IMG/VR virus record: IMGVR_UViG_3300025303_000086
Span: 1-40,202 of that record
Reading direction: 5' to 3' (one strand)
Length of the DNA: 40,202 nucleotides
Origin: a virus
Under the pieces are notes generated by a model. The model ran no database searches. It was not told the DNA's origin and worked only from the letters and a program-made list of their open reading frames with translations. Within the stretch, counting starts at the first letter, position 1, and the number at the start of each line of letters is the position of its first letter. Shown here piece by piece: positions 11,873 to 16,841 of the stretch. The translations under genes were made by a program, and so were the position numbers.

Positions 11873-12304
11873 TCAGTCAGCCACGCATCGATTTCCCTGC
11901 GCCGACCAGGCGCGCACCACGCCGGCTTTGTCGATCGTGAAGTTCACCGTGCACCCCAGGTGCACCACCGTGGGCGCGGCCTGCTGCTCGACGTTCGTGG
12001 TGGAGGTCTGGCTGTAGGTGCCCGTCGTCTGGCGCAGGCCCTGGTTCAGCGTGACGTTACCGTTCGTGGTGGTGGTGACCGGCGTGGTGGTGGTCGCGCC
12101 CGGCATGACCATCTGGCTGCGGCGGGTGTACTGCAGCACCTTCGAGCCGTCGGTGAGCTGGTAGCTGCTCTGCGGCGGCCCGTACGTGCCCACCACCACC
12201 GCCTCGGGTTGCCCCACGAACCCCTCCATCTTGGTCTGGAACTTGGCGTTCGTGGCGCAGCCGACGAGGAGGGCGGCCACGGCCGCGGCGAGGATGGTCT
12301 TCAC
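11873..12304 (-). CDS. Predicted lipoprotein co-transcribed with the repressor
   Basis: A 143-residue protein with a classical lipoprotein signal: VKTILAAAVAALLVGCATN (lipobox LLVGC, Cys16). The mature part includes VGTYGPPQSSYQLTDGSKVL, Thr-rich repeats (TTTTPVTTTTNG) and two later cysteines. Its first half resembles bacterial outer-membrane small-lipoprotein domains of the 'GPPxxxxxxxDG' type. The start is GTG at 12302-12304 in a GTGA overlap with the preceding gene. Being in the repressor operon it should be expressed in the lysogen, making it a candidate lysogenic-conversion or exclusion factor. Confidence 0.78.
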   Translation of the reverse strand: MKTILAAAVAALLVGCATNAKFQTKMEGFVGQPEAVVVGTYGPPQSSYQLTDGSKVLQYTRRSQMVMPGATTTTPVTTTTNGNVTLNQGLRQTTGTYSQTSTTNVEQQAAPTVVHLGCTVNFTIDKAGVVRAWSAQGNRCVAD

Positions 12305-12546
12305 AGCATCTGTCCTTTCACCTTCTCGCCCAGTTGGTCGTCGAGTGCGGCCAGCATTCCCCGGGCGAAGGTTGGGTTGCGATGGGCCTCGCCGGCGGTG
12401 TTCACGATGTACTCGCGGCGCTTCATCATCGCGGCGTACGCCAGGCCGAGGACCTGCCCCTTGCGCGCCGCGGCCAGCAGCTGCTCGAGGCACTCGACCG
12501 TGTCTTTCGAGATGGTGTCCGGCACCAGGGAGTAGGGCGCTCTCAT
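12301..12546 (-). CDS. Conserved phage protein downstream of repressor (81 aa)
   Basis: An 81-residue protein with SKDTVECLEQLLAAARKG, LGLAYAAMMKRREYIVNTAG and RNPTFARGMLAALDDQL. This pattern is widespread in prophages of proteobacteria, often near the immunity region, without an assigned function. ATG 12546 overlaps the repressor stop as ATGA, and the stop overlaps the lipoprotein start as GTGA, so the three are a coupled operon likely on during lysogeny. Confidence 0.8.
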   Translation of the reverse strand: MRAPYSLVPDTISKDTVECLEQLLAAARKGQVLGLAYAAMMKRREYIVNTAGEAHRNPTFARGMLAALDDQLGEKVKGQML

Positions 12547-13754
12547 TTCTTCTCGGCCCGAATGACGCCCGGGATCGCCACCGGGTGCCCTGGCTCGGCC
12601 TCCGCCCGGATCAGCTTGGCGGACTGGCGCTTGACCACCGAGACGCCCGGCAAAGAGAGAGTGACTCCGACAGCCTCCGACGTGCTGCTCTTGCGGATCC
12701 GTGCCGGAGGGATGGTGTGTGCCACGTACAGCAGCCGTGCCACGTCGGCCTCCTGGTAGGTCAGCGATTCGTGGAGGTTGTAGGCCCCGAGCCGAATGCC
12801 GCTGCGGCGCCCGTCCAGGCGTTTGAGCATCCGCGTCCCGTTCTTCAGCTGCACCAGCACGTCGTCTTCGACCTGCGGGACGGTGTTCGGCTCGATCAGC
12901 ACGTACTCGCCGGGCATGTACCGCGGCACCATGCTGTCGCCCACCACGCGGCATGCGAACGCTTCCGGGTCGTCCGAATGCACCTCGGCGTACTCGGTGG
13001 CCAGCTGCGCCGGATCGTCGAGGGCGTACTCGGGCTGGCTGCCGTAGGTGGTCCCGCGCACCCAGACGCGCCGCGGTGGCGCCCCGTAGCTCGCCTGCGG
13101 CTCTGCCACACGCAGGTGTGCGCCGAGCTCTACCGGCTCCCCGCCGACGCGGCGCGCCAGCCACCCGTCGATGATCCGCGGCATGTCCGGCGGCTCAGCC
13201 ATCAGCAGCAGGAAGTCGACCGGGTGATGTGCCTGGGCCAGCACGTAGCTCTGCGCCCGCGGCGAGATAGCGTGCGGGGTCTTCACTTCGACCCAGGCCA
13301 CGCTGCCGTCATCGAAGTCGAGCCGCAGGTCGGGGGTGTAGTTCGGCAGGTACTCGGCGAACCACACCTGCAGGTCCTTGCGGTCGTCCCGGTTCGTGTG
13401 CCGGGCCCGCACGCCGGCGGCGATGAACAGGTCGAGCGCCAGCTGCTCAAGCGCATTCTCGGTCGGCGACCAGGTGCGCGCGCGCTGCATCTCCTCGGCC
13501 GAGATGGTGGGGCTGATGGTTTCCGGCTTCACCCCGAGCAGCTCGGAGAACTTGGCGAGCACCTTCGCATTGAGAGGAATCTGCCCGTTCAGGTACTGGT
13601 TCAGGGCGCTCTGTCCGAAGTCCAACCGGCTGGCGGCCTCCATCTGGGAAGCGGGGGCCTTCTTCACCTTCTGGGCGTGCTGCCATTCGACGAACGCGGC
13701 CTTGAGCCGTGCGGCGTCTTCCTTCTGTTCTTGGGTGAGCGGTTTCGCGGGCAT
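12543..13754 (-). CDS. CI-like repressor with PD-(D/E)XK-like insert and S24 domain
   Basis: A 403-residue repressor. An N-terminal helix-turn-helix (about 35-80: QMEAASRLDFGQSALNQYL, ending VLAKFSELLGVKPETI) resembles lambda CI. The C-terminal S24/LexA-type domain (about 255-350) shows Ser274 in VVGDSMVPRYMPGEYV and Lys311 in TRMLKRL, 37 residues apart as in LexA. Between them, residues about 105-200 hold YTPDLRLDFDDGSVAWVEVK: Asp142, Glu156 and Lys158 match a PD-(D/E)XK core of the TnsA-N/VRR-NUC style. CI proteins are usually 210-240 residues. No clear Ala-Gly cleavage bond lies 34-38 residues before Ser274; Tyr237-Gly238 is at that place, and an Ala113-Gly114 precedes the insert. AGGTG precedes ATG 13754. 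The repressor call is firm; the nuclease-like fold is motif-based. Confidence 0.87.
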   Translation of the reverse strand: MPAKPLTQEQKEDAARLKAAFVEWQHAQKVKKAPASQMEAASRLDFGQSALNQYLNGQIPLNAKVLAKFSELLGVKPETISPTISAEEMQRARTWSPTENALEQLALDLFIAAGVRARHTNRDDRKDLQVWFAEYLPNYTPDLRLDFDDGSVAWVEVKTPHAISPRAQSYVLAQAHHPVDFLLLMAEPPDMPRIIDGWLARRVGGEPVELGAHLRVAEPQASYGAPPRRVWVRGTTYGSQPEYALDDPAQLATEYAEVHSDDPEAFACRVVGDSMVPRYMPGEYVLIEPNTVPQVEDDVLVQLKNGTRMLKRLDGRRSGIRLGAYNLHESLTYQEADVARLLYVAHTIPPARIRKSSTSEAVGVTLSLPGVSVVKRQSAKLIRAEAEPGHPVAIPGVIRAEKK

Positions 13755-13788: not shown

Positions 13789-13831
13789 AACCAGCGGGGC
13801 TGGTTTCTGGGCTGGACAGATCCAATCTGTC
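13789..13831. repeat. Two 17-bp palindromes in the repressor-cro intergenic region
   Basis: AACCAGC-GGG-GCTGGTT (13789-13805) and GACAGAT-CCA-ATCTGTC (13815-13831) are both perfect 7-3-7 inverted repeats, centred 26 bp apart. The second lies in the spacer of the rightward promoter. They differ in sequence from each other and from the GATNAGTC-type sites, so they may bind another regulator such as the Cro-like protein. Confidence 0.5.
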
Positions 13832-13842
13832 GGACTAATAAT
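13813..13842 (+). promoter_or_regulatory. Rightward early promoter (pR-like)
   Basis: -35 TGGACA (13813-13818), an 18-bp spacer and -10 AATAAT (13837-13842), the same geometry as the leftward promoter; the two share TAATAATT and scattered spacer bases. The expected transcription start (about 13848-13850) coincides with the ATG of the Cro-like gene. Confidence 0.78.
13824..13840. promoter_or_regulatory. Operator-like site overlapping pR
   Basis: AATCTGTC-G-GACTAATA, carrying the 11-bp GTCGGACTAAT shared with the site upstream of pL. It overlaps the -10 hexamer of the rightward promoter, the expected place for repression. Confidence 0.6.
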
Positions 13843-13847
13843 TGCGC

Positions 13848-14093
13848 ATGAGCACCTTCAAAGCCATCCGCAAGCTGCTGGGCGTGACGCAGCAGGAGAT
13901 CGCCCGCGGCATCGAGATGAGCCAATCGAACGTGGCTTTCATCGAGCGCGGCCAGACACTGACCCCCGACGCCGCCCGCAAGCTGATCGCCTACGCCGCC
14001 AGCCTCGGCGTGGCGCTGAGCTACGACCAGATCTACGGGACCGCGGCGTTGCCGCCGCCGCGCGTCGTCGAGGCCTCGAATAAGGCGGCGTGA
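13848..14093 (+). CDS. cro: Cro-like helix-turn-helix regulator
   Basis: An 81-residue protein divergent from the repressor. Residues 4-50 form a helix-turn-helix: FKAIRKLLGVTQQEIARGIE, then MSQSNVAFIERGQTLT. A short Pro-rich tail follows. By position it is the Cro-type antirepressor of the lysogeny switch. ATG 13848 lacks any ribosome-binding site and lies at the predicted start of transcription of the pR-like promoter, so the mRNA is probably leaderless; a TTG two codons upstream is less likely. The gene ends before a 520-bp region without plus-strand genes. Confidence 0.82.
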   Translation: MSTFKAIRKLLGVTQQEIARGIEMSQSNVAFIERGQTLTPDAARKLIAYAASLGVALSYDQIYGTAALPPPRVVEASNKAA

Positions 14094-14613: not shown

Positions 14614-14943
14614 ATGCACACGCTCGACGAGTGCGTCATCGAACAGGCCACCTTCAGCGGTTGCCTCGTCGCAGCCGCCCACCACAGCGGCAAGGACGAC
14701 GCCGAGATCGCCGCCGAGATCCACATCTGTGCCGGCTACATGTCGCGCTTCATGCGCGGCGTGGCCCAGCAGTGGGCCCGGCGCCTGGTCGGCTTCATGC
14801 GCACCACGCAGAGCCTCGCGCCGCTGCAGTGGATGGCGCACCAGATGGGCTGCGACATCGTCGTGCGCAACCGCCTGTCGGCCGAGCTGGCCGCGGCGCG
14901 CGCGCGGGTTCGTGAGCTGGAGCGGGGAGGGCTCGCAGCATGA
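14614..14943 (+). CDS. CII-like transcriptional regulator
   Basis: A 109-residue helical protein from MHTLDECVIEQATFSG. A helix-turn-helix is likely at about 28-60 (DDAEIAAEIHICAGYMSRFM), followed by a helix SLAPLQWMAHQMGCDIVV that matches phage CII/CP76-like regulators, and a C-terminal coiled coil (SAELAAARARVRELERGG). Its place after cro and next to four TTGC half-sites makes it a strong functional candidate for a CII activator of lysogeny. An upstream in-frame ATG at 14587 is an alternative start; neither has a strong ribosome-binding site. Its stop overlaps the HNH gene start. Confidence 0.72.
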   Translation: MHTLDECVIEQATFSGCLVAAAHHSGKDDAEIAAEIHICAGYMSRFMRGVAQQWARRLVGFMRTTQSLAPLQWMAHQMGCDIVVRNRLSAELAAARARVRELERGGLAA

Positions 14944-15614
14944 CGAAGAGCCGCGGAATCCTCGCACCGCGCCGGGCGTTCTCTGCCGAGGAGATCGCCT
15001 ACCTGCGCGATCACTTCCCCAACACCCAGACGCGCCTGGTCGCCGCCGCGCTCGGTCGCAGCGAGCCCACGGTCAATGGCAAGGCCTACAAGCTGGGGCT
15101 CAAGAAGACGGATGAATACCTCGCGTCACCCGCCGCGTGCCGGCTGGATGGCGTCCGTGGTGGCTCCTCGCGGTTCGTGAAGGGGCAGGCCGCTTGGAAC
15201 CACGGCAAGAAGCTGCCGGGCCACGGCAACCCCGCCACGTTCTTCCAGGCCGGCCACAAGGGCGGCAGCCGCGCGATCCCCGTCGGTGGTCATCGCATCA
15301 ATCCCGACGGCTACGTCGAGGTGAAGCTCAACGACAACCCGGGCCCGTACACGGTCCGCTGGAAGCCCGTGCATCGCCTCGTATGGGAGCAGGCCCACGG
15401 CCCGATCCCCGACGGCCATGTCGTGGTGTTCCGCCCGGGCATGCACACGACCGACCCGGCGGCGATCTCGATCGCCAGCGTCGAGTGCATCTCGAACGCC
15501 GACCTCATGCGGCGCAACACCTACCACCGCCACGGCCCAGAGATCGCAAAGGTCGTGCAACTGCGCGGCGCCATCACGCGCCAGATCAACAAACGCGCCA
15601 AGGAAACCCCATGA
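14940..15614 (+). CDS. HNH endonuclease with N-terminal helix-turn-helix
   Basis: A 224-residue protein. Residues about 13-58 (FSAEEIAYLRDHFPNTQTRL, then LGRSEPTVNGKAYKLGLK) are a helix-turn-helix or SANT-like domain. Residues about 78-105 are a DNA-contact-type segment (RFVKGQAAWNHGKK), and 120-195 an HNH_3-type core: HRINPDGYVEVKL, WKPVHRLVWEQAHGPIPDGH (His145, His160) and the late CISNADLMRRN. This is the make-up of a phage homing-type endonuclease inserted between regulator and replication genes. It overlaps its neighbours by four bases at both ends, unusual for a recent insertion. Confidence 0.85.
   Translation: MTKSRGILAPRRAFSAEEIAYLRDHFPNTQTRLVAAALGRSEPTVNGKAYKLGLKKTDEYLASPAACRLDGVRGGSSRFVKGQAAWNHGKKLPGHGNPATFFQAGHKGGSRAIPVGGHRINPDGYVEVKLNDNPGPYTVRWKPVHRLVWEQAHGPIPDGHVVVFRPGMHTTDPAAISIASVECISNADLMRRNTYHRHGPEIAKVVQLRGAITRQINKRAKETP

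Positions 15615-15869: not shown

Positions 15870-16837
<968 letters not shown>

Positions 16838-16841
<4 letters not shown>

Follow-up and report, generated by a model that had tools for sequence, protein, structure and literature searches.

The window, meaning the whole stretch of DNA that was analysed, is a virus record of 40,202 bases. By its gene content it is a temperate phage, since it carries an integrase-like ORF, a leftward operon (SbcC-like, RecT and exonuclease genes, assigned by PHROG matches), a gene in the cI position, a divergent Cro-like gene and, to the right of the immunity region, replication genes. The features of the locus are as follows:

1-1107, (-) strand: integrase-like ORF, from a reading of the sequence
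12301..12546, (-) strand: ORF of 81 amino acids that overlaps the stop codon of cI (ATGA) and is found behind cI in the two other phages examined; it belongs to no known family
12543..13754, (-) strand: cI-position gene for a 403-amino-acid HTH, PD-(D/E)XK and S24 repressor, from translation, Pfam, phmmer and comparison with a sister phage
13789..13805, no strand: perfect 7-3-7 palindrome AACCAGC/GCTGGTT, operator-like, from sequence
13813..13842, (+) strand: sigma70-like promoter towards cro (TGGACA-18-AATAAT), with 0.0 expected by chance in the search
13815..13831, no strand: perfect 7-3-7 palindrome GACAGAT/ATCTGTC, operator-like and inside the cro promoter, from sequence
13848..14093, (+) strand: divergent Cro-like HTH gene, from PHROG transcription-regulation matches

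The two palindromes between cI and cro differ in sequence, and unlike copies are unusual for operators of one repressor. An HNH endonuclease gene (14940-15614, (+) strand; phrog_1891 match at 2e-39) adjoins the immunity region on the right, and a helicase-loader-like protein encoded at 15870-16841 on the (+) strand contains a long internal Gln-Glu repeat (EQEQEQ...). The 81-residue ORF gave no PHROG match. It is 87% identical in amino acid sequence in the sister phage and is a conserved partner of cI proteins of this kind.

The cI-position gene is divergent from cro, with the operator-like palindromes between them, and its product has both an N-terminal HTH and an S24 domain with a Ser/Lys dyad. 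Pfam placed HTH_3 at residues 36–78 (2.4e-5) and Peptidase_S24 at residues 256–327 (1.8e-10). The parts shared with ordinary CI-type repressors are:

13491..13748, (-) strand: lambda-CI-like HTH domain, residues 3-88, from phmmer to lambda CI (1.9e-8) and Pfam HTH_3
12720..13067, (-) strand: S24 (LexA-like) domain, residues 230-345, from Pfam and alignment with relatives
12933..12935, (-) strand: Ser274 of the dyad, from alignment with S24 relatives
12822..12824, (-) strand: Lys311 of the dyad, from the same alignment

The original prediction had described a 403-residue protein in the CI position with an N-terminal HTH and an S24 Ser274/Lys311 dyad, and Pfam, phmmer and alignment bore this out; D142, E156, K158, S274, K311 and Y237-G238 all lie where it had placed them. 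Judged from sequence and setting, the protein is the repressor that would maintain the phage's dormancy.

Between the HTH and S24 domains lie ~115 extra residues, which very probably form a PD-(D/E)XK nuclease domain, as modelling described below indicates. The domain and its putative active site are:

13143..13484, (-) strand: inserted PD-(D/E)XK / VRR-Nuc-like domain, residues 91-204, from AlphaFold2, Foldseek and hhalign with shuffles
13446..13448, (-) strand: Glu103 in the first helix, a putative active-site residue, from the model (helix 97-112) and a by-eye alignment with the LE of FRSKLEAxW nucleases; identical in the sister
13329..13331, (-) strand: Asp142 (PD), from alignments with the sister and nuclease families
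13281..13289, (-) strand: Glu156-Val157-Lys158 (ExK), from the sister, nuclease-family alignments and the model
13251..13253, (-) strand: Gln168, at the position of the conserved VRR-Nuc Gln in a profile alignment

The active-site set (Glu103, Asp142, Glu156, Lys158 and Gln168) is thus complete in the window repressor. The bare string PD-x(9,16)-(D/E)xK is weak evidence, as it occurred in 1452 of 20000 shuffles of the protein (7%). The fuller motif [FY]xPD[LFIV]x[LIVF]..[VIL]E[VIL]K occurred in none of 20000. Searches of Pfam, PHROGs, NCBIfam and PADLOC, the last including defence families, gave no significant match to the middle domain. VRR_NUC (PF08774) was not matched at the Pfam cut-off; Tn7_TnsA-like_N (PF08722) scored below its cut-off in one scan (E 0.27; 12.2 of 26.5 bits) and was not matched in another; and tblastn against phages and plasmids returned chance matches only. 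Those weak, sub-threshold matches that have a described function were all nucleases (phrog_93, E 0.03–0.09; phrog_37023, ~0.1; TnsA-N, 0.27).

Motif pattern scans led to a family of phage nucleases with a helix 'RSKLEAQW' followed by 'YxPDF' and 'WVEIKGP'. Aligned by hhalign with a profile of these FRSKLEAxW nucleases, the middle domain scored 31.0 (probability 65%), a value reached by none of 400 column shuffles, and the HTH and S24 parts of the repressor fell short of it. When the two rows picked by pattern were left out of the profile, the score was the same and the alignment now covered the next helix and strand. Against a phage VRR-NUC profile the middle domain scored 30.4 (0 of 300 shuffles as high), with PD, ExK and Gln168 matched to conserved positions; the FRSKLEAxW family itself scored 25.4 against that profile, below the middle domain.

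A full-length AlphaFold2 prediction from two sequences was uninformative (pLDDT 33). Residues 89–205 were modelled from an alignment of the window and sister sequences plus seven remote nuclease fragments starting at YxPD, and gave a confident model (pLDDT 87.9, pTM 0.84) with an alpha-beta-beta-beta-alpha-beta core. In protein numbering, its layout is helix 97–112, strand 116–119, two short helices, strand 143–146, strand 152–158, helix 165–176, strand 181–185 and helix 188–204. Asp142 is predicted to lie at the start of strand 2 and Glu156 and Lys158 at the end of strand 3; the hairpin register of the predicted secondary structure would set Asp142 opposite Glu156, which speaks against the refuting condition named by the original prediction, that the catalytic residues are not near one another. 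Foldseek against solved structures, the comparison it had proposed, ranked a VRR_NUC domain first (4qbn; probability 1.00, E 5e-3, the PDB E-values being modest). Most of the matches ranked below it were other PD-(D/E)XK folds, Hjc and I-Ssp6803I among them. Against BFVD there were 8 matches at E<=1e-3, and the named ones comprised VRR-NUC proteins, nucleases and a single phage protein that carries no annotation. The structural part of the original prediction, a PD-(D/E)XK-like domain in this linker, thus came through every refuting check that was run.

This fold evidence is partly circular, because remote nuclease rows covered the core in the alignment. We therefore weighed a reading in which the middle domain has no nuclease fold, the motif having arisen by chance and the model having been pushed by those rows. 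The unmet family cut-offs, the frequency of the bare motif in shuffles and the assembly of the fold alignment by the analyst all speak for it. However, no shuffle reached the profile score against either of two families, the model is confident over helix 1 and strand 1 although only the two native sequences cover them, and VRR-NUC is the best solved match even though the alignment contained no VRR-NUC row. This reading is already disfavoured, and we consider it highly improbable.

A sister phage, IMGVR_UViG_3300027111_000242, is collinear with the window over most of its length and encodes the same three-domain protein at 67% identity. An assembly artefact or chimera was rejected, since this second contig has the same domain order and junctions. 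Within the repressor, the nuclease core (residues 139–200) is 92% identical in amino acids between the two phages, with a dS of 0.26, which falls within the phage-wide early-gene background of 0.24–0.36, and a dN/dS of 0.23, which argues that the core is under purifying selection. The HTH (dS 0.65), the S24 domain (0.78) and cro (0.59) are more diverged, as are the linker and tail of cI. Neither palindrome of the window is found in the sister. The two phages therefore look heteroimmune, given that HTH, S24 and cro have diverged and that they share no operators, while both retain the nuclease module. The catalytic residues are identical in the only homologue; natural members of the architecture number two, so 'conserved' here means n = 2.

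The completeness and conservation of the catalytic residues make a dead nuclease fold less likely. We nevertheless take seriously, while doubting it, a PD-(D/E)XK fold without catalysis, an internal module through which the repressor would dimerise, bind DNA or sense a ligand. Such a module would occupy the same location as the internal interaction region of other LexA-like regulators; in IrvR of Streptococcus mutans, residues 81–122 mediate dimerisation and RecA-independent autocleavage (PMC7101444). Cutting close to its own operators would also be costly to a repressor. Against this, a dead fold does not need Glu103, Asp142, Glu156, Lys158 and Gln168, all of which are retained in both members, and no part of the protein is better conserved than the nuclease core.

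The distribution of the domain is narrow. The HTH-nuclease-S24 order recurs in other phages to the extent of the one sister; no further case came from scans of IMG/VR and GTDB, which were seeded on short near-exact peptides or patterns, so that they may have passed over remote members, and the negatives from GTDB carry little weight. None of ~36 other S24 relatives has this domain. We found no description of such a repressor in the literature, so that, as far as these searches reach, the arrangement appears undescribed and is present in one other virus. In a third phage (L010), the lambda-like HTH and a similar S24 domain are joined by a short linker in place of the nuclease domain, and a homologous small ORF of 74 residues lies behind cI. 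This domain-free version of the same cI/small-ORF operon shows that the nuclease domain was cleanly inserted into, or lost from, the linker. Two further proteins were noticed in other phages. In L003, a stand-alone protein (1632-2132, (-) strand) with a nuclease-like stretch (WRADFAWPDRMVMVEVEGGHW) is encoded near that phage's domain-free S24 repressor. In Gordonia phage SCentae (L069), a protein annotated as an endonuclease (5-718, + strand) begins with an HTH-like stretch and continues into the same RSNWE...YxWPDF...WVEVKG nuclease core, and it is possibly another pairing of HTH and PD-(D/E)XK.

The S24 domain departs from its relatives at one site:

13041..13046, (-) strand: Tyr237-Gly238 at the position of the self-cleavage bond, where relatives have a small residue and Gly, from alignment of S24 relatives

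In LexA the P1 residue is small, and Asp at P1' (lexA3, G85D) blocks cleavage. In nearly all of ~20 aligned relatives the bond joins a small residue to Gly (GG, AG, LG). The original prediction that Ala-Gly is missing held in that Tyr237-Gly238 occupies the site; its assumption that Ala-Gly is the norm did not, as close relatives have Gly-Gly (QGG, NGG, KGG), and the oddity is thus the aromatic P1 and not a missing Ala. The bond position is Tyr-Gly in the window and Phe-Asp in the sister, so the small residue-Gly pair that lies ~35–38 residues before Ser in RecA-inducible repressors is lacking in the window protein, while the Ser/Lys dyad is intact in both. Because P1 is aromatic in both nuclease-bearing repressors and the sister also lacks the Gly, induction off the RecA route is plausible, and RecA-independent LexA-like regulators exist, IrvR being one (PMC7101444). 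Given the intact dyad, self-cleavage elsewhere or in trans is possible. That dyad, together with the dispensability of the domain in the related L010 operon, would also suit an ordinary CI that is cleaved with RecA and that gained the extra domain by recombination, as a neutral passenger. Purifying selection on the core (dN/dS 0.23) and the alteration of the cleavage bond in both carriers speak against this, and we give it very little credence.

The protein can be set beside four known kinds of system. Like lambda CI and other HTH-S24 phage repressors, it has an N-terminal HTH, a C-terminal S24 domain with a Ser/Lys dyad, and a divergent cro with palindromic operators between; unlike them, it holds a nuclease domain of ~115 residues in the linker and an aromatic P1 instead of a small one. 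With VRR-Nuc nucleases (PF08774; phage VRR-NUC proteins, FAN1, TseV) the middle domain shares its predicted fold and the PD, ExK and Gln positions, but it fails the Pfam model, has extra helices between strands 1 and 2, and is fused to a repressor, whereas they are encoded near helicase and polymerase genes. TnsA and T7 endonuclease I-like nucleases, the Bce1019 branch of the VRR-Nuc family (PMC9635880), and the phage FRSKLEAxW resolvase-like nucleases share with it the order of LE helix, YxPD, WVEVK, helix and strand, whereas the middle domain falls below the Pfam TnsA-N cut-off, has ~8 more residues before PD and is not stand-alone. IrvR resembles it in being a LexA-like repressor, in having a functional region that separates its HTH and S24 domains and in departing from RecA control, but no nuclease fold is reported for IrvR, which autocleaves constitutively (PMC7101444).

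The explanation that we favour, tentatively and without calling it probable, is a lysogeny repressor with an inserted, competent VRR-Nuc/TnsA-like nuclease that couples DNA state to repression, replacing or supplementing RecA cleavage. The computations show the order of the three domains, the nuclease fold by prediction, a full set of catalytic residues and the keeping of the module in a sister phage whose immunity differs. Beyond that, the HTH would bind the two 17-bp palindromic operators between cI and cro, and the S24 domain would form dimers as in lambda CI. As in its closest fold relatives, the nuclease domain would be able to cut DNA and would be specific for its structure, and it would encounter DNA with branches, nicks or free ends at forks that are damaged or replicating. 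Contact with such DNA, through cutting or through merely holding the repressor there, could couple DNA state to the repressor in place of, or in addition to, RecA-driven self-cleavage, for which the bond seems poorly suited. Flaps and splayed arms are substrates of VRR-Nuc enzymes (PMC9635880), which favours recognition of DNA structure over sequence-directed cutting of operators; the latter would endanger the prophage, which might also suffer from a nuclease anchored at its operators. A use in exclusion, in which DNA of related phages entering the cell is cut by the repressor, either on its operators or after release by induction or infection, so that destruction is added to repression, strikes us as improbable. 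It would fit the nuclease module being kept in two sisters that appear heteroimmune and whose HTH and operators have diverged, the intact catalytic residues, and the precedent of VRR-Nuc effectors such as TseV3, which are toxic structure-specific nucleases (PMC9635880). However, a prophage with the same operators would also be struck unless activity were limited to certain DNA structures, and the middle domain has no defence-family match.

The CI-type repressor is the textbook example of a genetic switch, and its induction is assumed to proceed through RecA-stimulated self-cleavage. If a nuclease coupling DNA state to repression is the correct reading, the linker nuclease and the altered cleavage bond would provide a different link from DNA damage or foreign DNA to the switch, and the domain-free L010 repressor offers a natural comparison for the nuclease-bearing one. 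In its strongest form, which we think rather unlikely, the master repressor would itself be an active structure-specific DNase: a single polypeptide, lacking the usual RecA-cleaved bond, would read operators, recognise or cut DNA that is aberrant or invading, and set the lysis-lysogeny state.
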